This document shows positions 8,857-37,130 of a DNA stretch of 64,000 nt, in pieces. Made by a program: the position numbers and the translations under genes. Below the pieces are notes generated by a model. That model had not been told where the DNA came from. It made no database searches and worked only from the letters and a program-made list of their open reading frames with translations. Every line of letters starts with the position of its first letter. Within the stretch, counting starts at the first letter, position 1. The stretch comes from Atopobiaceae bacterium (GTDB taxonomy: Bacteria; Actinomycetota; Coriobacteriia; Coriobacteriales; Atopobiaceae): positions 372,001 to 436,000 of the forward strand of contig JAKVOB010000001.1 in assembly GCA_022483015.1 (NCBI GenBank), given 5' to 3'.

Positions 8857-8884
8857 ACGTGCATCCTGCAGGAGGGCGCCCTCG

Positions 8885-10489: not shown

Positions 10490-10563
10490 GCCGTCCGGCC
10501 TGTCGTTCCCCTCGGCATGCGCATGCCCCTCTGCCGTCTCGCACGAAGGGCCCCCGTGCAGAA

Positions 10564-10641
10564 AGGGCACCCCGCGCCATTGCAGACATCCCTCGGCGCC
10601 ATCATCGGCACGAGGATGTGAGCACGGACGTGGGGTGCCCT
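10564..10641. terminator. Long inverted repeat between convergent genes
   Basis: A perfect 10-bp repeat AGGGCACCCC (10564-10573) / GGGGTGCCCT (10632-10641) encloses a second imperfect stem (ACATCCCTCG at 10586-10595 against CGAGGATGT at 10611-10619). It lies between the small membrane protein and the convergent DUF2252 gene. It is probably a bidirectional terminator, although U-runs are poor. Confidence 0.5.
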
Positions 10642-10666
10642 CATGTAAGCACGAGGAACCCGCGCG

Positions 10667-12064: not shown

Positions 12065-12106
12065 GGAGCTCCCCTAACCATAGGTTGCACACTCACTGCT
12101 CATGGG

Positions 12107-12133
12107 TTTATATCACAGGGAGCTGCACGTCAA
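12107..12133 (-). promoter_or_regulatory. Candidate promoter of the DUF2252 gene
   Basis: On the minus strand TTGACG (12128-12133) and TATAAA (12107-12112) are separated by 15 bp, about 43 nt before the start codon. The hexamers are good but the spacer is short. Confidence 0.45.
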
Positions 12134-12201
12134 GAATCGAATCTGAAAAATCGGTAGGCGCATGGGAATGCCGCCGCAGCAGGGGGCCTCGCCAAAGAGC
12201 A

Positions 12202-12237
12202 GGAGGCACCACGACCAGACCTGGTCATGGTGCCTCC
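12202..12237 (-). terminator. Terminator of tRNA-Leu
   Basis: The arms GGAGGCACCA-GACCAG and TGGTC-TGGTGCCTCC pair almost perfectly (15 bp, one mismatch) around a 3-4 nt loop just downstream of the tRNA on the minus strand. They are followed by a short T-containing stretch (GCTCTTTGG). Confidence 0.75.
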
Positions 12238-12246
12238 GGACACTCT

Positions 12247-12333
12247 TGGTGCGGGCGAAAGGACTTGAACCTTCATGGGGTTGCCCCCATACGGACCTGA
12301 ACCGTACGCGTCTGCCAATTCCGCCACGCCCGC
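12247..12333 (-). tRNA. tRNA-Leu (anticodon CAG)
   Basis: Minus-strand cloverleaf of 87 nt. It has a 7-bp acceptor stem GCGGGCG/CGCCCGC, a D-arm GGCGGAATTGGCAGACGC region, an anticodon loop TTCAGGT (anticodon CAG), the long variable arm of a class II tRNA, the T-arm GGTTCAAGTCC and an encoded CCA end. Reads CUG leucine codons. Confidence 0.95.
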
Positions 12334-12385
12334 GTGAGTTTGCATGGTAGCACGAACATGGGGTACACGACAACGTCCCACACGG

Positions 12386-12391
12386 TAGAAT
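12386..12391 (+). promoter_or_regulatory. Candidate -10 for the kinase/cell-wall operon
   Basis: TAGAAT lies 69 nt before the first kinase gene, in the gap after the divergent tRNA. No clear -35 is present. Confidence 0.35.
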
Positions 12392-12460
12392 GGACGAGAA
12401 ACACGCACGTCCCCACACCCGTGCGCCCGTACGACACACACACCAGAGACGAGACACGCC

Positions 12461-14293: not shown

Positions 14294-14294
14294 C

Positions 14295-22170: not shown

Positions 22171-22178
22171 TCCCGAGC

Positions 22179-23717: not shown

Positions 23718-23758
23718 CGACAAGGGTCCGTCCAGGTCCTCGTCAGGCGCCGAGCACC

Positions 23759-24817
23759 CTATACCGGCAGGATGCGGAAGCCCCTACCGGCACGCACGTG
23801 CTCGAGGAACGGTAGGTCCTCCCCTATCACCTGACCGATGACGTTCACCCTGGGCTCGCAGGCAAGGTCGCGTCGGGCTATCTCGAGCTCGCCCGCATAC
23901 CGCGCGTATCCGACGTTGCCGACCGAGATGCTGCCGAAGGGACGGGGACTGGGCGGGAGTGCCTCGTAGGCATGCCCGCCCGCGGCGGCATAGCCCCGAG
24001 ACTCCTGTGAGCGAATCACGTACTCGGACGAGTCGGGCCTGTCATGGTGGAGGCCGGCCACGGCATCCTCCCAACCGGCGTCCACACTCGCCCGAAGCAC
24101 CAGCTCGTCGGCTGACAGCTGTGCCATGCGGTTCCATGTCTCCCCCGCCAGGTCAGGATCACCGACCAGCACGACATCGGTGTCGGCGTCGGCGAGCTCC
24201 AATGCGGCCAGCGCGATCGCGTCGCCCGTGGCGCCACGATGCGCCTCGACCGTGGGCAGGCCCTCATGCAAGGGGCCGCGCAAGGTCCCGTCACCCGGCA
24301 CGAAGGCCATCGTGGTGAGCCCGAGGTCCGCGAGCCATCGGTTGGTCCGGGCCACCGCCGGGAGGGCAAGGCCCGTGAGCGGCTTGGGATAGAAGTTATG
24401 GCAGGCATCGAAGCGGGCGAGGTCCGCACCTGCGGACCTCCACGAGCGCACGACGTCGCGCGTGATCGTGGACGCGTTGAAGACCACGCGGAAGTCCTGC
24501 GACAGCTCGACGACCTGGGCAGGGGTGAAGCCGTAGTCAAGCCGTATGTGGTCGACCCCGAGGCCGATCAGGTCATGCATCGTGTCGCACCCGAGAAGGG
24601 CCAGCGTCTTGGGGGAGACGTCGGCCACGAGCGGGAGCCCGGCCTCATGGCAGAGCCCCAGCAGCTGATGCACCTCACGAGCGTGGTCGATGCCCTCCTC
24701 CTCGGGAATCTGCAGCGACGTGAAGGCAAGGCTGGCACCCACGCTGACCGCCCTCGACACAATCGCGGCATTGTCGTCGGCACCCGTCGACAGGTACAAG
24801 GAGATTCCCGTCCTCAT
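23759..24817 (-). CDS. mupG: DUF871 protein, probable 6-phospho-N-acetylmuramidase (MupG-like)
   Basis: The 352-residue protein starts MRTGISLYLSTGADD and contains the DUF871 hallmarks: GVDHIRLDYGF near the catalytic face of a TIM barrel, ARFDACHNFYPKPLTGL, and a C-terminal small domain (FGSISVGNVGYARYAGELEIA). In S. aureus the DUF871 protein MupG hydrolyses MurNAc-6-phosphate-GlcNAc made by the MurP transporter. The gene lies 119 bp downstream of the murP-like gene on the same strand, which supports that role. A hairpin in the gap may reduce read-through. Confidence 0.82.
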   Translation of the reverse strand: MRTGISLYLSTGADDNAAIVSRAVSVGASLAFTSLQIPEEEGIDHAREVHQLLGLCHEAGLPLVADVSPKTLALLGCDTMHDLIGLGVDHIRLDYGFTPAQVVELSQDFRVVFNASTITRDVVRSWRSAGADLARFDACHNFYPKPLTGLALPAVARTNRWLADLGLTTMAFVPGDGTLRGPLHEGLPTVEAHRGATGDAIALAALELADADTDVVLVGDPDLAGETWNRMAQLSADELVLRASVDAGWEDAVAGLHHDRPDSSEYVIRSQESRGYAAAGGHAYEALPPSPRPFGSISVGNVGYARYAGELEIARRDLACEPRVNVIGQVIGEDLPFLEHVRAGRGFRILPV

Positions 24818-24885
24818 ATGACCACCTGACCCTCCCGGCCGCCCAAGCGACCACATCCGAGACCATACCCCGTCACGAGCACAGA

Positions 24886-24917
24886 GGGGAGGTGCCATGG
24901 CCACATAGCACCTCCCC
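24886..24917 (-). terminator. Intercistronic hairpin between murP and mupG
   Basis: GGGGAGGTGC (24886-24895) and GCACCTCCCC (24908-24917) form a perfect 10-bp stem with a 12-nt loop. It may be a partial terminator or mRNA stabiliser within the MurNAc operon. Confidence 0.55.
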
Positions 24918-24936
24918 AAGAGACGACCCGGTGCCA

Positions 24937-26418
24937 CTACTCCCCGTAGACGTCGTTGATGCGCTTCTCGTCCACGCCGAAGAACCAGGTGAGCACGAAG
25001 CCGGCGGCATAGGCGACGAGCATCGCGATGACATAGAGCCACTGGGTGCCTGGCACCACGATGAGCAGGCCGAAGAGACCAGACACACCTTGGCTCACGG
25101 TCCCGAGGTGGAACAGCCACGCAAGCACGCCTCCGAAGCCGGCACCCAGGCAGGCGGTCACGAAGGGCTTGCCGAGAGGCAGGGTCACGGCATACATGAG
25201 GGGCTCGCCGATGCCGAGGATACCCACGGGCAGCGACTCGCGGATGTACTTCCGGGCCTTCTGGTTCTTGGTCTTGAGATAGAGGGCGAAGCCTGCACCC
25301 ACCTGGCCGCCGCCCGCCATCATGAGGATGGGCAGCAGGTAGTTGACGCCAGCCGTGGGCCCGTTCGGGTCGTTGAGCATGGCATGGATCGGCGTGAGCG
25401 CCTGGTGCAGCCCGACCGACACGAGCGGCAGGAAGGAGGCGGACAGGATGTAGCCACCCACGGCACCGAACGAGCTATAGACGAACTGCAGCGCGAAGAA
25501 GATGCCCTGGGTGAGGAAGGCGCCGATCGGCTGGAGCACGATGACGGCCACGATGCTGCCGATGCAGACCGTGAGCAGCGGCGTCAGGAACGTATCGAGG
25601 ATGTTGGGCACGACCTTGTGGAACCAACGCTCGAGGACCGCGAAGAAGATGCCGCAGATGAGCGCCGCGAGCAGGCCGCCGGCCGCAGGGTTGTAGGTGG
25701 TCGAGTAGGTGATGGCGATCGTACCCGTCGTCTGCGAGAAGGCCGGCGTGGGCATCGCGAAGGGCAGCGACACGAGCGACGAGGCACCGTCAGCGGCCTT
25801 CTTGAGCAGCGGCATGGCCGTGTTGGAGATGGACAGGGCGCCGGCCATGGCACCCAGGACGCCCGAGCCTCCCCACTCCTTGCATGCGTTGATGCCTACG
25901 AGAATCGGCAGATAGAGGAAGAGCGCCCAGCCCATCGTGCTGATGCAGGCGTACCACCACTCGCCTGCGAGGGCATTGCCCGTCGAGACGTTGATGACGT
26001 TGGTGATGCCGTTGATGAGGCCAGCAGAGATGATGCCGGGGAGCAGCGGCACGAAGATGTTTCCGATGCGCTTGAGGAAGCGCTGTACGGGCTTGTCGTG
26101 CTTGGCCTTCTGGGCCGCCTTGTTCTCGGCCGCGGCCTCTCCCACGCTCACCTCCTGGTCGCCGGCATGGATATGGGTGAGCTTCACGAACTCGGCGAGC
26201 ACCTTGTTGACCACGCCTGGCCCGAAGACGACCTCGAGCCGATCGCCGTCGCTCACGACGGAGAGCACCCCCTCGATGGCCTTGAGCCCCTCGAGGTCGA
26301 CCTTCGTCGCATCTGCCACCTTGAGACGCAGGCGCGTCATGCAGGCGGCATTTCCGAGGACGTTCGGCACACCCCCGACATGCTCGGCAACATCGGCCGC
26401 GACCTTTGCATAGTCCAT
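24937..26418 (-). CDS. murP: PTS EIIBC transporter, probable MurNAc or MurNAc-GlcNAc permease
   Basis: The 493-residue protein has an N-terminal EIIB domain of the glucose/sucrose family, with phosphocysteine C26 in NAACMTRLRLKV. A linker leads to a ten-helix EIIC domain with the GIGEPLMYAVTLPLGKPF signature. No EIIA domain is fused, so an EIIA from elsewhere is required. The neighbours murR, murQ and a DUF871 gene point to N-acetylmuramic acid or its disaccharide rather than sucrose or trehalose. The start MDYAKVAADVAEHV has AAGGAAG upstream. Confidence 0.88.
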   Translation of the reverse strand: MDYAKVAADVAEHVGGVPNVLGNAACMTRLRLKVADATKVDLEGLKAIEGVLSVVSDGDRLEVVFGPGVVNKVLAEFVKLTHIHAGDQEVSVGEAAAENKAAQKAKHDKPVQRFLKRIGNIFVPLLPGIISAGLINGITNVINVSTGNALAGEWWYACISTMGWALFLYLPILVGINACKEWGGSGVLGAMAGALSISNTAMPLLKKAADGASSLVSLPFAMPTPAFSQTTGTIAITYSTTYNPAAGGLLAALICGIFFAVLERWFHKVVPNILDTFLTPLLTVCIGSIVAVIVLQPIGAFLTQGIFFALQFVYSSFGAVGGYILSASFLPLVSVGLHQALTPIHAMLNDPNGPTAGVNYLLPILMMAGGGQVGAGFALYLKTKNQKARKYIRESLPVGILGIGEPLMYAVTLPLGKPFVTACLGAGFGGVLAWLFHLGTVSQGVSGLFGLLIVVPGTQWLYVIAMLVAYAAGFVLTWFFGVDEKRINDVYGE

Positions 26419-26455
26419 GATGTCTTCCTTTCCTTCTGATGTGCCTGGACCCGGC

Positions 26456-27373
26456 CTAGCCGATGGCCCTCCTGATATGACCCGATGCAACCTCGAGACG
26501 AGCGCGTGCCTCGCAGACGTCGACCCCCGCAAGGATCATGACGATGGCGCACTTGACGTCGCCGTCGGCTGACGAGAGGGCCGAGGAGGCCTCCTCTCGC
26601 GAGCACCCACAGGCATCCATCGTGATGTTGAGGGCACGCGACACGAGCTTCTCGTTGGTCTGCTGCACGTCGACCATGAGGTTCTGGTAGACCTTGCCGA
26701 TGCCGACCATGGCACCGGTCGAGATCATGTTGAGGACCATCTTCTGTGCCGTGCCCGCCTTGAGACGCGTGGAGCCCGTGAGGACCTCGGGACCGGTGAC
26801 CGGCTCTATCGCAAGGTCGGCGACCTTCCCTATCTCGGAGTCCCTGTTGCAGGAGAGCGCCACGGTCCTGCACCCCACCCGCCTCGCATAGGCCAGGCCG
26901 CCCAGAACGTAGGGGGTCCGTCCGCTTGCGGCGACGCCGATGGCGAGGTCGTGCGGAGCCAGGTCGATTCCGGCCATCTCCTCTGCACAGAGGGTGTCGC
27001 TGTCCTCGGCGCCCTCGGCAGCGCGGACGAAGGCGGAGTCGCCGCCGGCGATCATGCCCACCACGACATCGGGAGAGACCCCGAAGGTGGGTGGGCACTC
27101 CACCGCGTCGAGCACGCCGAGACGTCCCGACGTCCCCGCACCGAAGTAGATGATCCTGCCACCATCGGAGAGGCTGGAGGTCGCCCATTCGATGGCCTGT
27201 GCCACCTGAGGTATCACCTCACGGACGGCCGCCACGACCTTCTCGTCCTCTCGGTTCATGGCGCGGGCGACCTCGAGCGGGCTCATCTCGTCCAGATGGG
27301 ACGTGTCCGGGTTCCTCTCCTCGGTGGTGAGGTGGGAGAGGTCCACCACCGGTTGCTCATTCGTCGTCTTCAC
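26456..27373 (-). CDS. murQ: N-acetylmuramic acid 6-phosphate etherase
   Basis: MurQ cleaves the D-lactyl ether of MurNAc-6-phosphate, giving GlcNAc-6-phosphate. The 305-residue protein has the SIS-domain motifs IIYFGAGTSGRLGVLDAVECPPTFG and GVAASGRTPYVLGGL. It carries the two expected glutamates in AVECPP and AAEGAEDS and the family segment GSTRLKAGTAQKMVLNM, and ends with a UBA-like helical domain. The GTG start lies 1 bp after the murR stop with GGGGGAG about 8 nt upstream, so it is coupled to murR. Confidence 0.95.
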   Translation of the reverse strand: MKTTNEQPVVDLSHLTTEERNPDTSHLDEMSPLEVARAMNREDEKVVAAVREVIPQVAQAIEWATSSLSDGGRIIYFGAGTSGRLGVLDAVECPPTFGVSPDVVVGMIAGGDSAFVRAAEGAEDSDTLCAEEMAGIDLAPHDLAIGVAASGRTPYVLGGLAYARRVGCRTVALSCNRDSEIGKVADLAIEPVTGPEVLTGSTRLKAGTAQKMVLNMISTGAMVGIGKVYQNLMVDVQQTNEKLVSRALNITMDACGCSREEASSALSSADGDVKCAIVMILAGVDVCEARARLEVASGHIRRAIG

Positions 27374-27374
27374 T

Positions 27375-28235
27375 TCAGTACTCCCCCTTCTCCTTGTTGA
27401 TGTAATTCCGCATGAAGCCCTTGGTGCAGGCCTCATAGTTTCGGCTGACGTAGGTCGCGTACAGGATGTCGACCACGTTGAGCTGAGAGATGCGCGACGA
27501 GCTCGCGCCGCTTCTCACCAGGAGCTCCGTGGCTGCCACGTCGAGCACGATGTCCGACTCGGCCACGAGCGGCGACGAGAAGCCCCCTCTCGTGATGGCG
27601 ACCACCTTGGCCCCACGTCCGCGAGCGACCTTGGCACAGCACACCATCTCCTTCGTGAGGCCCGAGTAGCTGATCACGACGGCCAGGTCGTCAGGCACCA
27701 TGTTCTTGGCATAGAGCAGCTGGCTGTTCCAGTCGTCACACAGGTTGCAGGGTCGGCTCACGCGAAGGAGCTTGAGCTGGAAGTCCTTGGCCACCAGCAG
27801 GGACGCCCCCACACCGAAGAGGTTCACGGTGCGGCAGCCGCCTATCATGTCGACCACCCGGTCGATGGCCGTGGGGCTCAGGAGCTGACCGGTGTTCTCG
27901 AGCGAGGTGACGTTCTTGCGTGTCACCTTGCGCATGATCTCATCGGTCGTGTCGCTGGGCTTGATCTCGCTGAAGGCGGTGTCCTTGCTCCTCTGGTTCA
28001 CTGCCAGCACGTAGATGAGGCTGCGTTGGAAGTCCTTGTAGCCCGCGCACCCCAGCTCGCGGCAGAAGCGCACGATGGTCGACGGCGAGGTGAACGTGGC
28101 TTCCGCAAGCTCGTGGATGCTCTTCCCGGCAGCCTCGTCAGGATGGGCGAGCACGTACTCGACGATGTTCGACTGGGCCTCGCTGGCCGTCGGACGCATC
28201 TCCTCGATGCGGAGCATGATGTCGATCGTCTCCAT
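27375..28235 (-). CDS. murR: RpiR/MurR-family transcriptional regulator
   Basis: The 286-residue regulator has an N-terminal HTH of the RpiR type (residues about 1-77, SIHELAEATFTSPSTIVRFCRELGCAGYKDF). Its C-terminal SIS sugar-phosphate-binding domain contains NLFGVGASLLVAKDF and AVVISYSGLTKEMV. As first gene of the murR-murQ-murP-mupG unit, it is expected to respond to MurNAc-6-phosphate. The start METIDIMLRIEEM at 28235 is chosen for GAGAGAGG 6 nt upstream; the frame extends 27 codons further but without homology. Confidence 0.88.
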   Translation of the reverse strand: METIDIMLRIEEMRPTASEAQSNIVEYVLAHPDEAAGKSIHELAEATFTSPSTIVRFCRELGCAGYKDFQRSLIYVLAVNQRSKDTAFSEIKPSDTTDEIMRKVTRKNVTSLENTGQLLSPTAIDRVVDMIGGCRTVNLFGVGASLLVAKDFQLKLLRVSRPCNLCDDWNSQLLYAKNMVPDDLAVVISYSGLTKEMVCCAKVARGRGAKVVAITRGGFSSPLVAESDIVLDVAATELLVRSGASSSRISQLNVVDILYATYVSRNYEACTKGFMRNYINKEKGEY

Positions 28236-28728
28236 CTCGTACCTCTCTCGCAGCCGCCCCCGGGGACGGCGTCGTCTCATCGCTTCACTGGTCTCCTGCA
28301 GGATGCTGGAATGCATGGCCTTCCATGTGACCTATGCGGGGCGCGCCTTGGGACACAAGATACATTTTGCTCAGAGACTCCACTAGATTATGAAATTTTA
28401 TGCCACAGCGCGACAGAAGGAGCCTTCTAGGCGCTACCGCTTGGAAGGGAGAAGCTACCTTTCGGGGCCATCGCCGCCGGAAGAAGTACCACACACGACC
28501 CATGGAGGACCCCGCTGGGCCGTTGACAGCCAATAGCAGGCCGTTCGTATGGATATTCGCAGGTAGGGGATGCCATACCCTATGCATGGCGCACGGGGAC
28601 GACATATGGCGAAGGGCCATCGATGCAAGTCGACGGCCCTTCGGGACACAAGGCCCTAGGCGGCATCGGGACGCCGAGGCGCCCGCCGACCCCCTCGGAC
28701 CCGAGAAGACGAGCTCGTGGCCTAGGAC
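28236..28728. other. Intergenic gap upstream of murR: AT-rich promoter region and hairpin
   Basis: No convincing gene is seen. An AT-rich island at about 28366-28404 contains ATGAAATTTTAT and is the likely murR promoter/operator region. RpiR proteins often bind TGAAA/TTTCA-type dyads, but here only one half is convincing. Further on, CGAAGGGCC (28610-28618) pairs with GGCCCTTCG (28635-28643). That is a 9-bp hairpin suited as terminator of the minus-strand thioredoxin-like gene. A TTGACA at 28523-28528 has no good -10. Confidence 0.5.
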
Positions 28729-28980
28729 CTACTCGGCCTGCTCGAGGAGCTTCCTGACGCCCTTGGCGTCAAGCACCCGACCGGTTGACACGACGCTGCC
28801 ATCCACCACGAGGGCTGGCATGGACATGATGCCCTTGGATGACGCCTCCACCACGTCAGTGACATAGCCCACCTCGACGTCAAGCCCCATGTCGGAGACG
28901 GCCTCCTTGCTGGCGTCGAGGAGCGCCTGGCACCTCTTGCATCCCGACCCATACACCGTTACCTCGTTGATTGCTGCCAT
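28729..28980 (-). CDS. Small thioredoxin-fold protein with CKRC motif
   Basis: The 83-residue protein is about the size of the MTH895/TM0996-type redox-active disulfide proteins. It has a CKRC active site after the first strand (VTVYGSGCKRCQAL) and the cis-proline region GIMSMPALVVDG. These small thioredoxin-like proteins commonly sit beside ArsP/DUF318 permeases, as here. It is probably a redox or metalloid-handling partner of the permease, which is 50 bp upstream on the same strand. Confidence 0.85.
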   Translation of the reverse strand: MAAINEVTVYGSGCKRCQALLDASKEAVSDMGLDVEVGYVTDVVEASSKGIMSMPALVVDGSVVSTGRVLDAKGVRKLLEQAE

Positions 28981-29030
28981 GTTCTTCTCCCGTCCGTATC
29001 GAATCGGTCATCCCCGCCCAAGGCATCCCC

Positions 29031-30050
29031 TCACACGAGGAACGCCCCGAAGGCATTGAGCGCGTACCCGCATATGATCACGCCGGCGATGACGATGCCG
29101 ACGAAGATGCCCATGAGCTTGCCCGACACGACCCTCTTGAGCATGAGCAGCGACGGGATCGAGAGCACCGTCACGCTCATCATGAACGAGACGACCGTGC
29201 CGACGCCCACGCCCTTGGCCACGAGGGCCTCGGCGATGGGAAGCGTGCCGAAGATGTCGGCGTAGACGGGGGCGCCGAGGAGGGCGGCGAGCACCACCGA
29301 GAACGGGTTCTGGTCGCCCAGGACGGACTCTATGACCTCCTGGGGGATCCAGTTGTGGATGAGGGCCCCGACGCCGACGCCCACGAGCACGTAAGGCCAG
29401 ACCTTCCCCACCACCTCCTTGACCTGCGACCAGGCATAGGAGACGCGGTCCTTGTGGGTGAGGGTGGTCTCCTCTTCCTCGTCGTTCGCCGCGACCCCCT
29501 CGCGCGCGAAGGCGGGAATCTCCCCCTCGAGGCCCATGTGGTCCATGAGCGTGCCACCCACCACGGCCACCACGAGGCCGAGTACGACATATGCGATCGC
29601 GATCCTCCAGTTGAAGACGCTCGCAAGCAGGATCAGGGAGGCAAGGTCGACCATGGGGCTCGAGATGAGGAACGAGAAGGTCACGCCGATGGGAAGGCCG
29701 GCCTTGGTGAAGCCGATGAACAACGGGATCGACGAGCAGGCACAGAAGGGCGTGATGGTCCCCATGAGGGCACCCACGACGTTCGCCCATATGCCATGGA
29801 GGTGACCGAGGAGCCTCTTGGTACGCTCGGGCGGGAAGTAGCTCTGGATGTAGCTGATGACGAAGATGACCACCACGAGCAGGATGGCGATCTTCACCGT
29901 GTCATAGCAGAAGAAGAGCACGCTCGCACCAACCTGCGAGGTCGTGTCGAGACCCATGCTCGTGAGGGCCGCAGCAATCAGCTGTTTCAACCAGGTCATC
30001 TTGAAGAGCGCGTCATTGATGATGTCGAACAACCCCTTGGCCCCTCTCAT
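29031..30050 (-). CDS. ArsP/DUF318-family permease
   Basis: The 339-residue protein has two sets of about four helices with the repeated family motifs GTITPFCACSSIPLFIGF and GAPVYADIFGTLPIAEALV. In ArsP, cysteines in the first motif bind trivalent organoarsenicals for efflux. Here the first repeat keeps the CACSS cysteines. A charged cytosolic loop (ANDEEEETTLTHKD) separates the halves. With an ArsR regulator upstream and a thioredoxin-like partner downstream, a metalloid export role is likely. The exact substrate is unknown. Confidence 0.85.
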   Translation of the reverse strand: MRGAKGLFDIINDALFKMTWLKQLIAAALTSMGLDTTSQVGASVLFFCYDTVKIAILLVVVIFVISYIQSYFPPERTKRLLGHLHGIWANVVGALMGTITPFCACSSIPLFIGFTKAGLPIGVTFSFLISSPMVDLASLILLASVFNWRIAIAYVVLGLVVAVVGGTLMDHMGLEGEIPAFAREGVAANDEEEETTLTHKDRVSYAWSQVKEVVGKVWPYVLVGVGVGALIHNWIPQEVIESVLGDQNPFSVVLAALLGAPVYADIFGTLPIAEALVAKGVGVGTVVSFMMSVTVLSIPSLLMLKRVVSGKLMGIFVGIVIAGVIICGYALNAFGAFLV

Positions 30051-30113
30051 GTCGACCTGCTCCGGTTGGTGCGTCCGATTCGTGCAATCCGTCGAGAAGA
30101 ACCAGGTCCCGGG

Positions 30114-30464
30114 CTATCCTGAGCAGTCACATGGGCCGTCTGGGGCATCAGGGCCGGAGCCCTCCTCCAGGCACGCGCCATCCAGGGATGCCCCCATGAA
30201 CGCGTCGAGCAGCCCACGCGCCCGCGCCGCACCCGCGCCGCTGATGGAGTAGTGGGTCCACTTCCCCTCCTGACGCGCCACGACGATTCCCGAGGCGCAG
30301 AGGACCTTCATGTGGTGGGAAAGGGTCGACTGGCTGATGTCGAGATGCTCCTGCAGGTCGCAGGCGCACTTCTCGCCGGTGCTCAGACGCTCCAGGATCT
30401 GCAGGCGGTACTCGTTGCAGAAGGCCTTGAACACGGCGGCGTCCCGCTGGTACCTGTCGCCCAT
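30114..30464 (-). CDS. arsR: ArsR-family metalloregulator
   Basis: The 116-residue winged-helix protein carries the classic sensing helix EKCACDLQEHLDISQSTLSHHMKVL, where the CxCDL cysteines match the ArsR arsenic site. A cysteine-containing C-terminus (CLEE...CDCSG) could add further metal ligands. The start MGDRYQRDAAVF at 30464 has GGGGG about 7 nt upstream; upstream codons overlap the operator. It probably represses its own operon with the permease and thioredoxin-like genes. Confidence 0.92.
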   Translation of the reverse strand: MGDRYQRDAAVFKAFCNEYRLQILERLSTGEKCACDLQEHLDISQSTLSHHMKVLCASGIVVARQEGKWTHYSISGAGAARARGLLDAFMGASLDGACLEEGSGPDAPDGPCDCSG

Positions 30465-30479
30465 GCCGTACCCCCAGAC

Positions 30480-30506
30480 ATCATATCTACTTTTCTCGAT
30501 ATGATA
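30480..30506 (-). promoter_or_regulatory. ArsR operator overlapping promoter
   Basis: Perfect inverted repeat ATCATATC (30480-30487) / GATATGAT (30498-30505) with a 10-bp spacer, just upstream of arsR. A minus-strand TATCAT (30501-30506) inside the distal arm could be the -10, so repressor binding would block polymerase. Confidence 0.7.
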
Positions 30507-30556
30507 GCACCGAATGGGGCCGATGCACCTGCGCCGCCGTGCCCGGCCAAGAAGAA

Positions 30557-30580
30557 GGCCGCCGGCTCTCGCCGACGGCC
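30557..30580 (-). terminator. Ancestral terminator of tRNA-Arg, now separated by the insertion
   Basis: GGCCGCCGGC (30557-30566) pairs with GCCGACGGCC (30571-30580) around TCTC. On the minus strand it is followed by TTCTTCTT. It sits immediately beyond the left att repeat, where the 3' flank of the intact tRNA-Arg would have been before integration. Confidence 0.75.
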
Positions 30581-30585
30581 TGGTA

Positions 30586-30635
30586 TTACGTGGTGCCCTC
30601 GGGCGGATTCGAACCGCCGACACCAGGTTTAGGAA
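30586..30635. repeat. Left attachment site (attL), 50-bp repeat of the tRNA-Arg 3' end
   Basis: The 50 bp are identical to 37050-37099 and cover the CCA end, acceptor, T-arm and part of the anticodon arm of tRNA-Arg(CCT). The rest of the tRNA is missing here, so this copy is the displaced host fragment. Confidence 0.93.
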
Positions 30636-30765
30636 TTTTGTTCTCTTGGTTTTCGCAGACTTTTGTATGTTTCTACGACTTAGATTTTCCAATACGTCTA
30701 CCAGGTGTTACACGTCAGAATATGTAACCTTGTGTCTGTGTGTGTTAGAATGTTAGCGGTAAAAG

Positions 30766-30787
30766 TATGGCACGGATATGGCACAGG
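30766..30787. repeat. Left candidate integrase arm site
   Basis: Two copies of TATGGCAC, 11 bp apart (30766-30773 and 30777-30784), repeated in the same order near the right end at 36966-36987 with a single mismatch over 22 bp. They lie about 130 bp inside attL and just upstream of the integrase start. Confidence 0.6.
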
Positions 30788-30802
30788 ATGGAGGCGGCCA
30801 GG

Positions 30803-32161
30803 ATGTATGAGTACAGCTCCGGGAGTCTCAAACGCGGCAGGCCCTCGAAGTCCTTCAAGCGTGGGAGGTGGCGCGCGACGATCTGCTACCAGTCCGACGA
30901 CGGGGACGGAAGGGGACGCCGCCAGCACCAGATATCGAAGCTCCTCGAGTCCGAGGTGACTGGTGCAGCCAACGAGGGACGCCCGAAGGCAAAGAAGGAG
31001 CTCGAGAGTTGGCGCAGTGACATCATCGAGGCCAACACACGATGCGACGGCGTGGTCTCTAGGTTCACTGCCGATGCGGACGAACAGGGAATGAGGGGAT
31101 GGCCAGATCAGGACGACGTGGACGCGAGCGCGATGGTGCCCGACTATGTGGCCGACTTCATACGTGGGCTAAGCGGCACGGTATCTCCGACCACGCAGGA
31201 CAGCTACCGGGTAAGCAACATCTACATAAGGAACGGGCTCGGAGGGATCCACCTTGGGGACCTCACCATGAAGCAGGTCGAACGATGGAGGAAGGATCTT
31301 TCACGCCATGGTCGCAAGGATGGCGGGCCACTATCCGCTAGCAGCGTCACGAAGTCCCTCACGTTGCTCTCCGAGACCTGCAAGCACGCCGTCAAGCTCG
31401 GAGACATACCCTCCAACCCGTGCGACGGAGTTGGACGCCCGAAGAAGAAGCAGCCGGACCCGAACGCCTTGAGCGAGGACGACGTGGCAAGGCTGAACTC
31501 CGAGCTATCGAAGATGGGTCCGACACCTCTAGCCGTTGGGGCTTCGATAGCCCTCATGACCGGGATGCGCGAGGGCGAGGTGTGCGGACTCAGGTGGGAG
31601 GACGTAGACCTCACCGGCCGAACGCTTCAGGTGAGGAAGAGCGTCGGGCGCGCGAACGGAACGACCTACCTCAAGGAACCGAAGTCCAAGGCAAGCAGGC
31701 GCAAGCTCCCGATAGGGAAGACGTTGTTATCCGTTCTCGAGTCGCGCAGGGCGAGGATGCAGGCCGATTGCATGGCTGCCGGGATACCGTTCACCGGCGA
31801 GCTATACGTGATCGGATACAGGGACGGCAGATACCTCACTCCGCACACGCTCGGGGAGTACTGGGCACGGTTCGCAGCAGGAAATGAGGACCGGGAACCG
31901 TTCGTAGGGTCAAAGCACCGGGTCTGCACCTTCCATGACCTACGGCACACGTTCGCTACGAGGTCGATAGCGTCCAAGGTTGACGTGAAGACGGTATCGA
32001 GCTTCTTGGGACACCAGGACACCTCTATAACCCTCAACGTCTACGCAAGCTCAGACGACGACGCCAAACGCCGGGCGGCCGACATGATGGACGGCATCCT
32101 AGGTGCGACTGCGACCGAGGCAGACGTGATGCAACTCAGGACGGGCACGACGGGCGAGTAG
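30803..32161 (+). CDS. int: Tyrosine recombinase (integrase) of the tRNA-Arg element
   Basis: The 452-residue phage-type integrase has an N-terminal arm-binding region (residues about 1-60), a SAM-like core-binding domain (about 112-205) and a catalytic domain. The active-site residues are R256, H378, R381, H404 and Y414 in GMREGEVCGLRWED, FHDLRHTFAT, FLGHQD and LNVY. All are present, so it should be active. The start MYEYSSGSLKRGR at 30803 has GGAGGCGG about 7 nt upstream. In-frame ATGs at 30767 and 30788 are possible but lie in the repeated arm-site sequence. Confidence 0.95.
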   Translation: MYEYSSGSLKRGRPSKSFKRGRWRATICYQSDDGDGRGRRQHQISKLLESEVTGAANEGRPKAKKELESWRSDIIEANTRCDGVVSRFTADADEQGMRGWPDQDDVDASAMVPDYVADFIRGLSGTVSPTTQDSYRVSNIYIRNGLGGIHLGDLTMKQVERWRKDLSRHGRKDGGPLSASSVTKSLTLLSETCKHAVKLGDIPSNPCDGVGRPKKKQPDPNALSEDDVARLNSELSKMGPTPLAVGASIALMTGMREGEVCGLRWEDVDLTGRTLQVRKSVGRANGTTYLKEPKSKASRRKLPIGKTLLSVLESRRARMQADCMAAGIPFTGELYVIGYRDGRYLTPHTLGEYWARFAAGNEDREPFVGSKHRVCTFHDLRHTFATRSIASKVDVKTVSSFLGHQDTSITLNVYASSDDDAKRRAADMMDGILGATATEADVMQLRTGTTGE

Positions 32162-32255
32162 GCCCGAGGACATAGGAAGGGCCACCCTCTCAGCTTGGAC
32201 GGCGCGAGGATGGCCCACAGAGGCCCCAAGGGGCCACGAGAGAGAGGTTATCACC

Positions 32256-32702
32256 ATGAGCGGAACGACAGGAACCACGACGGTCGGCATGGACATGCGC
32301 GAGTTCGAACGGCAGCTCCAACACGTCCGGGACGCGGCAGCGACGTTAGGCGTCTTTGCCGTCTCCGAGGGAATTGATGGGGTGTATCCCGGATTCGGGA
32401 TGGTCCTGGAGGGGATGGCCGGGTCGCTCCTCGACACGACGAGGGCCATAGACGCGGCAGGATGGCAGCACGTGCCGAAGCGTCCTGTGCAGGATACGCA
32501 AGACGCCACGCAAGTTGACTTCAAGGCCCACGAGGAGGCACGGCACCGGGTCGAAGGTGCAACGAACATGTTGTTCGGGATGGCCGAGTCTGGGTTAGCC
32601 ATGCAACCAGAAACGGCAGCCGGCCTACAGGATATCGCCGAGATCCTATCTAACGCGACGTGCGACATGTACGGCGCTTGCCATGCGCCCGATGAGATTT
32701 GA
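32256..32702 (+). CDS. Hypothetical protein of the integrated element, 148 residues
   Basis: No family is recognised. The protein is soluble, mildly acidic and predicted mostly helical, with no clear motif. A good AGAGAGG ribosome site precedes MSGTTGTTT; the same GAGAGG-TATCACC-ATG arrangement precedes the gene at 35734, so the two may share a translation signal. It follows the integrase by 94 bp and is followed by a terminator at 32768-32814. Confidence 0.7.
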   Translation: MSGTTGTTTVGMDMREFERQLQHVRDAAATLGVFAVSEGIDGVYPGFGMVLEGMAGSLLDTTRAIDAAGWQHVPKRPVQDTQDATQVDFKAHEEARHRVEGATNMLFGMAESGLAMQPETAAGLQDIAEILSNATCDMYGACHAPDEI

Positions 32703-32767
32703 GGCCACAGAATCGCTTCTAAGGCCCTATCTTTCATGGCATCGACTGAGTGCCCACCATTAGCAAG

Positions 32768-32814
32768 GGAACGCCCACCGGTGGGCCGTGGCAGGCTGAG
32801 GCGGTGGGCGTTTC
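32768..32814 (+). terminator. Terminator after the integrase segment of the element
   Basis: AACGCCCACCG (32770-32780) pairs perfectly with CGGTGGGCGTT (32802-32812), extended by G-T and G-C pairs outward, and ends in TTTC. It separates the integrase unit from the repressor-like gene. Confidence 0.7.
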
Positions 32815-32860
32815 ACATATCATTGTACCCGTTGGGTCGGACGTGTTTGGGGTGGTGGCC

Positions 32861-33592
32861 GTGGCAGGCAAACAGGATGATGAGGCGTCACGCGACCCGC
32901 GCGAGGTGGCCGGACTCTGCAAGGCCATACCGAAGCATAACCTAGGGAAGCTGCTTCACAGACGGCGCGGCATGGTTGCCGAGTTCGCTGACGCCATGGG
33001 CGTTAACAGCAAGTACCCGAGCAAGTGGGTTAGTGGAGATAAGCGCATGACCAACGAACAGGTTGCGAAAGCGTCATGGCTTCTCGGGGTGCATCCCCTC
33101 TACCTTCTCGACATGAGGGAAGAGGAAGACCCGGCGATATGTTATATCCCATATGAGGATGAGGGATTATTGGTACCACGTGAAAGCATGATTGAAGCTG
33201 TAGGTTTCCTATCAATCCCAGCAATCGGGAAATACGATGAGCGATCACAAAGGTGGGAAACGCTCTATGGATTCACGGGCGGACCTACAGAGTGTGAATC
33301 GATGTGCGTCAATCCCGACATAGGCTTTGAGAGAAGTACGGAATACGTTCCGATGAGTACCGAGGAGGCCGAGAGCTTGCGCAAGGAGGCCATACGTTCT
33401 CTAGTAGCAATAGATGGAGACTTTAGAAACCCATCTGGAGTCATGTTTGCAATGCTAGAAATACTCCTATCAACTGCCGGCGGCAGCAACTGTGTTTTTG
33501 TATTTGACGACCTAGAAAAGCTATTCGTAGAGTCGGCCTACTCAAATGATGATGCCATGTGCACGGCCAGGGCGCGCCTTGCGAGTGATTAG
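32861..33592 (+). CDS. HTH protein, candidate repressor of the integrated element
   Basis: A lambda-repressor-like HTH lies near the N-terminus: LGKLLHRRRGMVAEFADAMGVNSKYPSKWVSGDKRMTNEQVAKASWLLGVHPLYLLD, about residues 28-84. The rest (about 160 residues) is not recognised. Composition falls to clearly lower GC after about 33100, unlike its neighbours, suggesting a separate origin. The start is uncertain. The frame is open back to 32750 but that stretch contains a terminator hairpin; GTG at 32861 with GGGGTGG upstream is preferred. It lies just before two operator-like dyads and is the obvious candidate to bind them. Confidence 0.7.
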   Translation: MAGKQDDEASRDPREVAGLCKAIPKHNLGKLLHRRRGMVAEFADAMGVNSKYPSKWVSGDKRMTNEQVAKASWLLGVHPLYLLDMREEEDPAICYIPYEDEGLLVPRESMIEAVGFLSIPAIGKYDERSQRWETLYGFTGGPTECESMCVNPDIGFERSTEYVPMSTEEAESLRKEAIRSLVAIDGDFRNPSGVMFAMLEILLSTAGGSNCVFVFDDLEKLFVESAYSNDDAMCTARARLASD

Positions 33593-33639
33593 CAACCGGC
33601 CGTGAACGGCATCCAAAGATTCTCGTGAAAAACTTTCGC

Positions 33640-33720
33640 GTGACCTTGTTAACGATGCAAGGTCACGCTTTCGTTTGATATAGCTAATTCCATGTGACCT
33701 CATGTGGTGGAGAAGGTCAC
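33640..33720. promoter_or_regulatory. Pair of identical-geometry operator dyads
   Basis: GTGACCT-N13-AGGTCAC occurs twice, at 33640-33666 and 33694-33720, with centres exactly 54 bp apart (about five helical turns). The first dyad extends to an 11-bp perfect arm (33638-33648 with 33658-33668). The dyads occupy the only large gap within the element, upstream of the Xis-like and replication genes. They are probably repressor operators. Confidence 0.75.
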
Positions 33721-33820
33721 GTTTCACATCATAACACCAGGTAGACAGCTTATTACCCCGTGTTAGTCTCTTGTTGTCTGCAGACGCGAACATAAATCTG
33801 ACAACGGAAAGGGGCACACG

Positions 33821-34042
33821 ATGACATACCCAACCATGACATTAGAAGAGTTCAATGAACTCGCGGCACTATGCACCCCAAAGCACGTGTCGGAGATGAG
33901 CGGGCTATCACTCCACACGGTTCAATGCATGGCCCACGACGGCGATCTCCCCACTGCTTGCAAGGTCGGGGGGAAGTGGCGATTCAACACGCAGGAGATG
34001 GGCCGCCTGTTCGGCATCATCACCGATTCGAGCACCGACTAG
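33821..34042 (+). CDS. Excisionase-like HTH protein
   Basis: The 73-residue protein has the compact MerR-like/HTH_17 fold of excisionases: CTPKHVSEMSGLSLHTVQCMAHDGDLPTACKVGGKWRFNTQEMGRLFG, with the characteristic wing GGKWRF. It may act as Xis for the integrase or as activator of the downstream replication genes. A GGAAAGGGG ribosome site lies upstream. The next gene starts 1 bp after its stop. Confidence 0.8.
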   Translation: MTYPTMTLEEFNELAALCTPKHVSEMSGLSLHTVQCMAHDGDLPTACKVGGKWRFNTQEMGRLFGIITDSSTD

Positions 34043-34043
34043 G

Positions 34044-34784
34044 ATGGCCGGATCTAGGGCCGTGGCTCCGACTGACGGCAGCGGATGGCCGGGAGACGGC
34101 ATCGAGCCGACTATCGAAGGTCACTATTCGAAGCTTGACGACGATTTGGCAGCGTGGCTCTCGTGCTGGACGTCATGGACGCGCCGCAACTTCAGGAGGG
34201 GGTGCGGGTCACGTCTCGAGCTCCTGCCGTTCGCAGCCTACAGGACGGAGGCCCACGACTCTATACGCGGCGAGAGGTTCACGTCCTTCTCGCAGTCGCA
34301 GGCCGCCGAGTGGATCGGATGCACGAAGCGTAACGCGGTCAACGTCATAGGCGACATGAGCACCGACGACCCCAACGAGAGGCCGGCCCCGCTCACTGTC
34401 GCAGCGAAACCGCCACGCGGGAACAACTCATGGAGCACCTGTTACACGTTCACCGATGCATCCTTCTCAGATGAAGCGAACGCCGTTTCAGGTTCACCTG
34501 ATGGAACAGAACCAGATGAAGCCATTCACGGTTTCGGTTCACCTGTAGCACCCCATGCCTCAGGTGAACTCTCGTGTACCTCAGGTGAACTCTCGTGCAC
34601 GTCAGGTGAACCGAGCAAACAGGTAATGCCTGGTAGAAGCATTGCCGATGTTCCCCCTATATCTCCTATAACTCCTACACCACCCACAGAACAAGACAGC
34701 CATGGACCCGCTGCAAGTAGTAGCGATGTCACTGGCCTATTAGGGGAGGGTTGCTCTGATGAGTTTGAGGAATATGACGAGTGA
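34044..34784 (+). CDS. Initiator-like protein with iterons inside its coding sequence
   Basis: Residues about 25-135 look like a winged-helix DNA-binding domain, with FTSFSQSQAAEWIGCTKRNAVNVIGDM as the HTH. Residues about 140-190 consist of repeated units (two 15-residue DEA...GSP copies, then SGELSCT copies) encoded by the DNA repeats at 34468-34611. The acidic C-terminus (DEFEEYDE) could contact the loader. The layout of N-terminal DNA-binding domain, repeat-coded linker and C-terminal partner region, followed by a DnaC-like gene, parallels lambda O. No homologue is named with confidence. The start is coupled to the preceding stop; there is no strong ribosome site. Confidence 0.65.
   Translation: MAGSRAVAPTDGSGWPGDGIEPTIEGHYSKLDDDLAAWLSCWTSWTRRNFRRGCGSRLELLPFAAYRTEAHDSIRGERFTSFSQSQAAEWIGCTKRNAVNVIGDMSTDDPNERPAPLTVAAKPPRGNNSWSTCYTFTDASFSDEANAVSGSPDGTEPDEAIHGFGSPVAPHASGELSCTSGELSCTSGEPSKQVMPGRSIADVPPISPITPTPPTEQDSHGPAASSSDVTGLLGEGCSDEFEEYDE
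34468..34611. repeat. Iteron array, candidate replication origin
   Basis: Five copies of the core CAGGTGAAC. Two are inverted (GTTCACCTG at 34492 and 34537), inside a 45-bp-period direct repeat that begins with CAGATGAAGC at 34468 and 34513. Three are direct (TCAGGTGAAC at 34560, 34581 and 34602) with an exact 21-bp period. An AT-richer stretch with repeated CTCCTATA-like units follows at about 34655-34685. Helically phased iterons next to such a stretch inside an initiator-like gene suggest an origin. Confidence 0.7.
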
Positions 34785-35664
34785 TGAGGCGAGGGCCAAG
34801 GCCGAGCAGCGGTCGGAGCTCGCGGCGAGGTGCGGCATCGAGTACGGGACCAACACCGACTCCCCGACCGATCCCGACGGGATATTTGCGTACATCACGA
34901 CAGAGGGAGGAGGCCCAGACATGACGGAGCTCGAGCGCGAGAAGGTCGAACTCATAATGAGTCACGGATTCCAAGGCAGCGTCGAAGCCGCCTTGGAGAT
35001 GGCCGCTGCCTATGATGCGTGGCCGAACCAGGCTTCTGGTTGGTACCTCGACAGGTTCGGGGTGAGGGCCGACGAGGAGGAGCCGGAAGCGATCCGGGCG
35101 GCGGCAGGCGTCCCTAACGCCCTCATGGGTGCCATGGACTCCTACGAACCGACCGAGGACATGGTGGCCTATGCCTTCGAGCTATCCGGGAACGCGACAC
35201 GCGGCGCATGGCTGGTTGGCAGCGACTACGCGACCATGGCGGCCGCATGGGTCTCAGGCATGGCACACGGCAGCCGCTACGTTGACGTGCCCGAGCTGTT
35301 GGCGGACTTCGAGGCCATGTCCCGCTTCGGGCCAGAGGGCGCGAGGAACAGGGCGAACGCCATGAGGGGGCCGTCCGTGTTGGTCCTGAATGCCATTGAC
35401 GGCGCTCAATGGACCCGGCAATCCGTGGCACTTGTGGCACCGGTGATCAGGTATCGGCGTATGGCATCGCTGCCAACGGTGGTGACGGCAACCACGAGGG
35501 TTTCGGGCGTCGCGTCCCACCTCATGCAGACCATAAGCGGTGACGATGCGCGCAAGCAGGCTAACGACATGCTTCGAGACCTCCTCGCGGGAATGGGCCG
35601 CACGAAGGAGGAGCGCAGGTCCCACTTCATAGAGTGCGGCGCGGGCGGTGATGCGGTGGCATGA
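34759..35664 (+). CDS. DnaC-like helicase-loader homologue with degenerate ATPase motifs
   Basis: Residues about 117-260 align by eye with DnaC/IstB-type AAA+ loaders: a GVPNALMGAMDSYE entry segment, TRGAWLVGS at the P-loop strand, SRYVDVPELLADFE, GPSVLVLNAIDG at Walker B, VIRYRR and LPTVVTATTRVSG at sensor 1. The P-loop GxxGxGKT is replaced by GSDYATMAA (154-162), and the Walker B acidic pair is NA. It is thus probably unable to hydrolyse ATP. The start has GGGGAGGG about 8 nt upstream and overlaps the initiator gene by 26 bp, showing translational coupling. Confidence 0.65.
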   Translation: MSLRNMTSDEARAKAEQRSELAARCGIEYGTNTDSPTDPDGIFAYITTEGGGPDMTELEREKVELIMSHGFQGSVEAALEMAAAYDAWPNQASGWYLDRFGVRADEEEPEAIRAAAGVPNALMGAMDSYEPTEDMVAYAFELSGNATRGAWLVGSDYATMAAAWVSGMAHGSRYVDVPELLADFEAMSRFGPEGARNRANAMRGPSVLVLNAIDGAQWTRQSVALVAPVIRYRRMASLPTVVTATTRVSGVASHLMQTISGDDARKQANDMLRDLLAGMGRTKEERRSHFIECGAGGDAVA

Positions 35665-35677
35665 GACCTAGGAAGAC

Positions 35678-35699
35678 CTACCAGGTCGCATCCTGGTAG
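35678..35699 (+). other. Small hairpin downstream of the loader gene
   Basis: CTACCAG (35678-35684) and CTGGTAG (35693-35699) form a perfect 7-bp stem 14 bp after the stop. It may weakly terminate or protect the replication transcript. Confidence 0.4.
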
Positions 35700-35733
35700 C
35701 TGGTAGATGTTGACCGACAGAGAGGATATCACC

Positions 35734-35976
35734 ATGAATGGCACAACGACCCATGAGACGTGGCGGACGGAGATCAGGAACGGGAGGGACGCCTACAGGG
35801 CGGCGATCAGGTACGTGGTCAACGAGCTCCGAGCGACCGACTTCTCAGACACGGACGAGGCCGACGAGACCCTGGGTGACGTGTATTCGATCCTGGAGAG
35901 CGTCGTGAGCACGGAGAGGTTCGATACCGGGACCATGACGCACGAAGGTCACGACGCCGTATTCGTTCTCCGTTAG
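35734..35976 (+). CDS. Small hypothetical protein of the element, 80 residues
   Basis: An acidic, helical-looking protein (RNGRDAYRAAIRYVVNELRATDF...DEADETLGDVYSILESVV) with no recognised family. The start is set by AGAGAGG upstream in the same ribosome-site context as the gene at 32256. It is the first of three small genes at the right end of the element, where satellites and islands often keep accessory functions. Confidence 0.65.
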   Translation: MNGTTTHETWRTEIRNGRDAYRAAIRYVVNELRATDFSDTDEADETLGDVYSILESVVSTERFDTGTMTHEGHDAVFVLR

Positions 35977-36007
35977 GTAGCAGTCCACATCAACGAGAGG
36001 TATGAGC

Positions 36008-36496
36008 ATGAAGTATCTGAAGAGGTCTCACCCGGACGGCAGCGGATCAATCGGAAGGTGGGACGAGGTCAGCAAGAAGGAGTTCAAGGCCGCATACGGC
36101 AGGAAGATGGCGTCGGTATGCTCCGACGAGGACAACTCCGACGTGTCTGTCAGCTCCGACGAGGAGCAGGACTACATGAGGTACGTCTCATGGAGGATGG
36201 GTCACAAGTACGATCTCATGCCGGACGCCCTCACGCAGCCTGGTAAGGACCTCGCATGGGACCCGAGGCCACTGTCGGAGGCCGAAACCTCCCTCGAGGC
36301 GTACCAGAAGTACGCGGCCGAGTGCGACTCGGAGGCCGAGGCCGACGAGCTGATGGCACAGTCGAAGCGTGAGGAGGCCGAGAGGTGGCGGAACAAGGTG
36401 GGGCCGACGAGGGACAGCGTCGCAAGGCTCACGTCAGAGCGTGACAGGCTGTGGTCAAAGTACGAGTCTACGGTGTTCGGGGACGAGGAGGTCTAG
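36008..36496 (+). CDS. Hypothetical protein of the element, 162 residues
   Basis: No family is recognised. The protein is hydrophilic and charged, with a Ser/Asp-rich segment (CSDEDNSDVSVSSDEEQD) near the N-terminal third and a likely helical C-terminus (EAEADELMAQSKREEAERWRNKV). GAGAGG lies about 7 nt before the ATG at 36008; an ATG two codons earlier (36002) is too close to the ribosome site. It is followed 2 bp later by the next gene, so the two are coupled. Confidence 0.65.
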   Translation: MKYLKRSHPDGSGSIGRWDEVSKKEFKAAYGRKMASVCSDEDNSDVSVSSDEEQDYMRYVSWRMGHKYDLMPDALTQPGKDLAWDPRPLSEAETSLEAYQKYAAECDSEAEADELMAQSKREEAERWRNKVGPTRDSVARLTSERDRLWSKYESTVFGDEEV

Positions 36497-36498
36497 GT

Positions 36499-36822
36499 AT
36501 GGAGCTTATCGACGAGAACAAGGTCAGGGATCTCGAGAAGAGAGCTAAGGCCCTGCGATACGAAGCGGACTCATACGACGAGAAGGCACGGGCACACGCT
36601 GCCAAGGCAAGGTCGCTCGAGCGCTCGAAGGAGTCTGTCGAATGGCTCGAGGGACGTATCTCCGAGCACGAGAAGAGGGAGAAGGAGTGCCGCGCTTCGG
36701 CCAAGGCGTCACGTTCCGAGCTTGCCAAGGTCTCGAAGATGCTCGAGCGCGAGAAGGGACGGCCGTCAAACTACGACGACGCCCTCATGGGAATGATCGA
36801 CGAGGCGGACGACCCGAGATGA
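36499..36822 (+). CDS. Small coiled-coil protein of the element, 107 residues
   Basis: Almost the whole protein is charged heptad-like sequence (KVRDLEKRAKALRYEADSYDEKARAHAAKARSLERSKE...), a long coiled coil ending in a short acidic tail. GGAGG lies 8 nt before the start. Its role is unknown. Short coiled-coil proteins at element ends can be structural, partition-like or regulatory, and nothing in the sequence decides between these. Confidence 0.65.
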   Translation: MELIDENKVRDLEKRAKALRYEADSYDEKARAHAAKARSLERSKESVEWLEGRISEHEKREKECRASAKASRSELAKVSKMLEREKGRPSNYDDALMGMIDEADDPR

Positions 36823-36965
36823 GAGTCGGGTGGGGGTACTTTATTTGCGGGCCGTGGCATGACTCCCGCCGCTAGTCATAGTTTCCCCCCGCCCAGGAGT
36901 AATTAGTGGGTAGTGTCAATTTCCCAAGGCGTAAATCAGCGAGATTCGCCAAATTATCGTGAATG

Positions 36966-36987
36966 TATGGCACAGATATGGCACAGG
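36966..36987. repeat. Right candidate integrase arm site
   Basis: Two TATGGCAC copies 11 bp apart (36966-36973 and 36977-36984), matching the left copy at 30766-30787 in the same orientation. It lies 62 bp inside attR in otherwise non-coding sequence (36823-37049). Confidence 0.6.
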
Positions 36988-37013
36988 CCGTATTTCACGG
37001 TTCGAAAGAAATT

Positions 37014-37046
37014 AGCAGGCCAGCGGTTTTTACCCGTTGACCTGCT
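37014..37046 (-). terminator. Element-borne terminator for the interrupted tRNA-Arg
   Basis: AGCAGG (37014-37019) and CCTGCT (37041-37046), with an inner partly paired segment, form a hairpin 8 bp beyond the CCA end of tRNA-Arg. On the minus strand it is followed by TAATTTCTTTC. It replaces the original terminator now stranded at 30557-30580. Confidence 0.6.
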
Positions 37047-37049
37047 ATT

Positions 37050-37099
37050 TTACGTGGTGCCCTCGGGCGGATTCGAACCGCCGACACCAGGTTTAGGAA
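37050..37099. repeat. Right attachment site (attR) within intact tRNA-Arg
   Basis: This is the second copy of the 50-bp att repeat. Here it is continuous with the 5' half of the tRNA, so integration restored a complete gene whose 3' half comes from the element. Confidence 0.93.
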
Positions 37100-37130
37100 A
37101 CCTGTGCTCTATCCCCTGAGCTACGAGGGC
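37055..37130 (-). tRNA. tRNA-Arg (anticodon CCT)
   Basis: Minus-strand cloverleaf of 76 nt: acceptor GCCCTCG/CGAGGGC, D-arm GCTCAGGGGATAGAGC, anticodon stem CAGGT/ACCTG with loop TTCCTAA (anticodon CCT), T-arm GGCGGTTCGAATCCGCC and encoded CCA. It reads AGG arginine codons and is the integration site of the neighbouring element. Confidence 0.96.

Follow-up and report, generated by a model that had tools for sequence, protein, structure and literature searches.

The element at tRNA-Arg(CCT)

The window, as we call the whole 64,000-nucleotide stretch analysed here, comes from the genome of an Atopobiaceae bacterium (GCA_022483015.1, contig JAKVOB010000001.1, positions 372,001 to 436,000, forward strand). 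It contains an integrative element of about 6.5 kb, enclosed by an exact 50-bp direct repeat. A tRNA-Arg(CCT) is called by ARAGORN at the right end, and the right copy of the repeat is the 3' part of this tRNA, so that the left copy is a displaced tRNA fragment. The repeat and the tRNA call bear out the att sites of the original prediction, which had been made from the letters of the window alone. The two att copies enclose nine genes, all on the plus strand. The interior is 84% coding with no broken frames, and its G+C content is 58.9%, compared to 66.3% for the remaining window. The element is apparently intact and comprises the following features.

30586 to 30635, no strand: left att copy (50-bp exact direct repeat), the displaced 3' part of the original tRNA-Arg
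30766 to 30784, no strand: left candidate paired arm-type integrase (Int) site, TATGGCAC-GGA-TATGGCAC, with a second occurrence at 36966
30803 to 32161, plus strand: tyrosine recombinase (integrase), 452 aa
32256 to 32702, plus strand: 148-aa protein downstream of int, no family; marginal matches only in 396 Coriobacteriia genomes
32870 to 33592, plus strand: helix-turn-helix (HTH) protein, probable repressor; start uncertain, the open reading frame being open from 32750
33639 to 33721, no strand: palindromic GTGACCTT/AAGGTCAC sites (inverted repeats) ahead of xis
33821 to 34042, plus strand: Xis-like HTH_17 protein, 73 aa
34044 to 34784, plus strand: probable replication initiator (Rep), 246 aa
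34492 to 34611, no strand: five iterons CAGGTGAAC inside rep (2 inverted, 3 direct), probable origin
34759 to 35664, plus strand: homologue of helicase loaders with a predicted DnaC/DnaI fold, 301 aa; Walker A and B lost
35734 to 35976, plus strand: 80-aa protein, no family
36008 to 36496, plus strand: 162-aa charged protein, no family; marginal matches only in the 396 genomes
36499 to 36822, plus strand: 107-aa charged protein, probably helical; low-complexity-type matches to long coiled-coil families only
36966 to 36984, no strand: right candidate paired arm-type Int site, repeating the left TATGGCAC-GGA-TATGGCAC pair
37050 to 37099, no strand: right att copy (50-bp exact direct repeat)
37055 to 37130, minus strand: tRNA-Arg(CCT), rebuilt through the insertion (ARAGORN)

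Five of the nine proteins have no convincing family match. No family was found for the four small genes that had been listed as unknown, and neither the 148-aa nor the 162-aa protein has a convincing relative in the 396 Coriobacteriia genomes. Domain and family searches with the nine proteins gave no match to terminase, portal, capsid, relaxase or FtsK, in line with the predicted lack of virion, packaging, relaxase and DNA-transfer genes, and no cos or pac site could be identified in the element. The sequence CTCTGACCTGC, present at the right ends of elements, was considered as a packaging site and judged to be part of the target tRNA terminator. The 148-aa and 80-aa genes have in common a 33-bp leader and start region (82%, at 32237-32269 and 35715-35747), and they may be co-regulated or paralogous. 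The element also shares a 24-bp stretch with the chromosome at 702 kb; the gene that contains it there appears unrelated, and the match was put down to chance.

Integration, excision and repression

The integrase matches Pfam family PF00589 (1.5e-21) and its catalytic residues R, HxxR, H and Y are all there. The intact recombinase of the original prediction thus stands, with a probable change of start from the ATG at 30767 to 30803, made because 30767 falls within an arm-type site; the 30803 start is preceded by GGAGG. An identical paired 7-mer with 11-12 bp spacing occurs at both ends in 15 of the 17 elements tested, the window element included, compared to 3 of 4831 control pairs of stretches drawn at random from these loci. 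The 7-mer sequence is particular to each element or close pair. These pairs look like arm-type integrase sites.

The Xis-like protein matches PF12728 (5.2e-9) and PHROG Cox/Xis families (Cox-like, 1.8e-5), and is homologous to the xis products of other elements. The HTH protein is of phage type and has weak matches to PHROG repressor families (~1e-3). It has a relative in locus L048 (1e-5), and no convincing relatives were found among the 396 Coriobacteriia genomes. Both proteins agree with the roles first proposed for them. The GTGACCTT/AAGGTCAC palindromes ahead of xis are probable operators.

The replication module

Five copies of CAGGTGAAC lie within 120 bp of rep, two in one orientation and three in the other, and none of 200 codon shuffles of the gene attained five copies. 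The rep gene of the related locus L258 also holds five copies of a 9-mer, of different sequence. These intragenic iterons are the probable replication origin. The Rep protein itself has no family match. Since it resembles the L258 Rep only weakly and its structure prediction is uninformative (pLDDT, the model confidence score, of 33), we infer its probable role as initiator from its position, the iterons and the L258 similarity.

The 301-aa protein encoded directly downstream matches DnaI weakly on its own, and the alignment of its family matches solved DnaI at 3e-29 in a profile comparison. In the predicted fold, the AAA+ domain has mostly a pLDDT above 90, and the top Foldseek matches are DnaI-type loaders. 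By profile and predicted fold, the protein is a member of the DnaC/DnaI family. Its Walker A lysine and Walker B aspartate are absent: GSDYATMAA replaces the GxxGxGKT of most relatives, and LVLNAI replaces LVLDDL. Judged from these motifs, the protein is probably ATPase-dead. Its closest relative is in L258 (5e-34). The Walker A signature is also missing from the loader relatives in L258 and L030, and it is retained in L152. The loss is therefore a property of several elements and not damage to one copy. The predicted initiator-loader module is accordingly retained as far as the iterons and the DnaC/DnaI family and fold are concerned, with the qualification that the loader has lost both Walker motifs and that the initiator matches no family.

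In lambda-type initiators, the origin is located inside the initiator gene. The window module resembles the lambda-type arrangement, in which O with its in-gene origin is accompanied by P or a DnaC-like loader, in that the iterons lie within the initiator gene and a loader-type gene follows at once. It differs in that Rep has no detectable sequence relation to O-like families, and in having as its loader a DnaC/DnaI homologue whose Walker motifs are lost.

A conserved modular class of elements

Siblings were found by fetching integrase relatives with their flanks, a search that favours elements with this integrase; their genes were called with a simple script, with possible errors among the small ones. 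Eighteen further tRNA-integrated loci with the same integrase family were obtained from Atopobiaceae, Coriobacteriaceae, Eggerthellaceae and other families. Each lies between two exact repeat copies of 28-68 bp, one on the int side and the other at the 3' end of a tRNA gene 5.0-9.2 kb away, and the targets are tRNAs for Arg, Thr, Lys, Val, Pro, Phe, Met, Gly and Ala. The window element fits this class in its integrase family, its exact repeat at a tRNA 3' end and its length in the 5-9 kb range. It also conforms to the usual order of int, HTH, xis, replication genes, small genes and tRNA, in which some siblings have cargo interposed.

Replication genes differ among the elements. A DnaC-like protein is found in the window element, L258, L030 and L152, a DnaB-like helicase in L031, L034, L041 and L045, and a Prim-Pol/D5-type primase in L032. 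Judged by this gene content, replication modules are swapped between elements of the class. In a sister species, element L031 occupies the same tRNA-Arg(CCT), and the adjoining chromosomal genes are colinear with the window. The L031 Int is the closest relative of the window Int in the tree (98/97), and the replication genes of L031 are different. To the left of the element lies a stretch of about 8.4 kb (22150-30585 of the window) without equivalent in the sister species, whose chromosome becomes conserved again about 1.5 kb past the att site; this stretch may be a second insertion or may have been lost in the sister species.

The element's small size, its orphan genes and the loss of both Walker motifs from its DnaC-like protein would fit a decayed prophage or integrative and conjugative element (ICE) that is no longer mobile. 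We consider such a remnant very improbable in view of the exact att repeats, the retained arm sites, the catalytic residues of the integrase, the iteron array and an 84% coding interior without broken frames. The same compact architecture recurs in the 18 other elements, and the Walker A loss, as it occurs in L258 and L030 too, is not decay peculiar to the window copy. The gene order of the original prediction is thus conserved in other Coriobacteriia, and no larger prophage parent of the element was seen. Because 18 siblings exist, mostly with the same order and with paired arm sites at both ends, the window element is a member of a conserved modular class and not a decayed prophage.

Some loci from the search contain further genes. 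L035 (2777-12006) carries PIF1 helicase, exonuclease, BRCT and DUF3800 genes as cargo, and L036 (2718-10203) a gene for an MmeI-type IIG restriction enzyme. By sequence, L162 (12425-16447) encodes a secreted-looking protein of 1340 aa, and L159 (8130-8690) a protein resembling a serine resolvase.

Comparison with known elements

The closest elements in design are the phage-inducible chromosomal minimalist islands (PICMIs), which require a DUF3987/DUF5906 primase and are located at fis (PMC10803314). Likenesses are the size of about 6 kb, the integrase, the AlpA/HTH_17-type excision regulator and the replication gene, as well as the dispensability of capsid-remodelling and terminase genes and the possible carriage of defence cargo. 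In contrast, the window element is inserted at tRNA-Arg(CCT), no DUF3987/DUF5906 primase was found in it, and its replication module consists of an iteron-bearing Rep and a DnaC-like protein.

Many phage-inducible chromosomal islands (PICIs) carry a small terminase subunit (TerS) gene, and in their layout an int/repressor side diverges from a side with xis, replication and packaging genes. The window element resembles PICIs, including the Staphylococcus aureus pathogenicity islands (SaPIs), in its tRNA att site, integrase, repressor, Xis and replication module, and siblings L033 and L276 have a TerS-like gene. Unlike these islands, it has all its genes on one strand (plus) with no divergent int/repressor side, and no terminase, capsid-redirection or interference gene was recognised in it.

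Actinomycete integrative and conjugative elements (AICEs) of the pSAM2 type are also small elements that replicate, integrate at tRNA genes and carry integrase and Xis, and they occur in Actinomycetota. Their definition requires an FtsK/SpoIIIE transfer protein (PMC3218068), whereas the window element has no FtsK/SpoIIIE-type match and lacks RepSA, RepAM and Prim-Pol. Locus L046 (G003, reverse strand, oriented 4121-15442), 11.3 kb in length, is an AICE-like element at tRNA-Phe; its integrase is of the same family as that of the window element, and it encodes an FtsK/SpoIIIE protein and a rolling-circle-type Rep. It contrasts with a 2011 survey in which Coriobacteridae were reported to be devoid of AICEs (PMC3218068).

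Transfer of the element

The integration and replication modules are complete and the other genes are orphans, as might be expected of an autonomous integrative plasmid that replicates and has no dedicated horizontal route, moving by transformation or generalised transduction only. However, the class is spread over several Coriobacteriia families and many tRNA sites, and some members have TerS-like genes, which suggests a regular transfer route; the autonomous plasmid is therefore an unlikely explanation.

A TerS-like protein is encoded by the complete siblings L033 and L276 and by a third locus, L277, which is partly masked in the data. These proteins match PHROG small-terminase families at 3e-5, 9.5e-7 and 3.7e-8. 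Their relatives in a phage collection are in two unannotated faecal contigs from Mexico, MT836267 and MT837364. In MT836267 (L282, MT836267.1; 11458 bases with a 124-bp terminal repeat), the TerS relative is directly followed by the large terminase subunit TerL (1.3e-48). Genes for an integrase, an HTH protein, an Xis-like protein and a primase are also present in this contig, no capsid gene was recognised in it, and it looks like a larger satellite. In MT837364, the TerS relative lies upstream of a tape-measure gene. A Mexican childhood study, possibly linked to the two contigs, obtained virus-like particles by filtration, chloroform and DNase (PMC8361208). Among IMG/VR viral contigs, the integrase profile reached distant relatives only and the loader had no match. 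Because the sibling TerS-like gene has a virome relative beside TerL, part of the class is, by gene kinship, very probably made up of phage satellites.

In L033, L276 and L277, the gene directly after the TerS-like gene encodes a 212-aa protein that is conserved among them (57-78% identity) and matches nothing in PHROGs, Pfam or phage records; packaging or capsid-related genes would be expected at this position. By eye the protein is like the right-end proteins of L031, L152 and the virome contigs; profile E-values were 0.36 to 4.6 and this homology was dropped. An L045 protein was set aside as a TerS candidate, since it resembles the group by eye only.

Two very similar ICEs are present in the window's genome, at about 944-974 kb (L050, L043) and 1970-2000 kb (L038, L049, L268) of G000:C1. 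Both have a type IV coupling protein, a VirB4-like ATPase, a MobA-type relaxase, an adhesin-like surface protein and an integrase of the element's family. The window element could thus be an oriT-only integrative mobilizable element (iOriT; PMC11389934), which after excision would replicate in plasmid form and depend for its transfer on a co-resident ICE with its relaxase and type IV secretion system. Its likenesses to iOriTs are that it integrates, that it lacks a relaxase and that the genome holds ICEs as possible conjugative helpers. Siblings L035 and L036, inserted at the same tRNA-Pro with 93% identical int DNA, have Ints that fall among the ICE Ints and encode a possible NikA/MobC-like ribbon-helix-helix protein (weak match, 0.033). 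However, the window element has neither a relaxase nor a MobC-like gene, and its Int groups with that of L031 and not with ICE Ints. Its DNA matches to the resident ICEs are restricted to the int gene, and none was found outside int, where short oriT sites could escape detection. On this evidence, mobilisation by an ICE is possible but doubtful. With TerS in some siblings, and ICE-type integrases and a possible NikA/MobC-like gene in L035 and L036, one chassis may use different carriers.

Several observations count against a satellite. The initiator of the element is weakly supported in its identity, the element itself lacks TerS and any other recognised packaging gene, neither a phage portal nor an HK97-type capsid was detected in the window's genome, and that genome holds the two ICEs. 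A match of the phrog_2 TerL profile in the host genome (9e-6) is weak, and was not taken as a phage, the same profile matching 11 of 14 control genomes. The phage satellite, one of two possibilities in the original prediction, thus gains from the sibling TerS kind that adjoins TerL in a virome contig, and loses from the lack of a recognised packaging gene and of a detected resident helper phage. With no TerS in the element, no detected portal or HK97 capsid and two ICEs with related integrases, we infer its transfer route by kinship with the siblings, the satellite being favoured and mobilisation by an ICE being the main rival.

Proposed cycle of the element

We lean slightly towards the view that the window element is a helper-dependent replicating integrative element of a modular Coriobacteriia class, most likely a minimal phage satellite. 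The repressor would silence the xis and rep genes through the palindromic sites. On relief of repression, Int and Xis would excise the circle, and Rep would bind the five iterons within its own gene and recruit the host helicase through the DnaC-like protein. As the latter has lost its ATPase motifs, it would act as a lambda-P-like adaptor. Finally, since no terminase gene was found in the element, the replicated DNA would be packaged in the particles of an incoming helper phage by the helper's own terminase, which is the least certain step.

A bolder proposal, which we hold to be unlikely as a whole, is that the elements form an undescribed class of minimal Coriobacteriia phage satellites with swappable TerS, defence and replication modules, of which the window branch would be terminase-free, with an in-gene iteron origin and an ATPase-dead DnaC homologue. 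This homologue may also compete with the helicase loader of the helper or of the host. A narrow search of open-access literature gave no paper on phage satellites in Coriobacteriia, and this does not prove that such satellites are undescribed.

Coriobacteriia are common gut bacteria. At least 19 mini-elements in several of their families share one integrase family; some have a TerS-like gene, others a type IIG restriction enzyme or different cargo of a defence-like kind, and others again neither. This defined set lends itself to the questions of how a single small chassis has come to be carried by phages or by ICEs, and of whether replication can still be initiated with a loader that is ATPase-dead.

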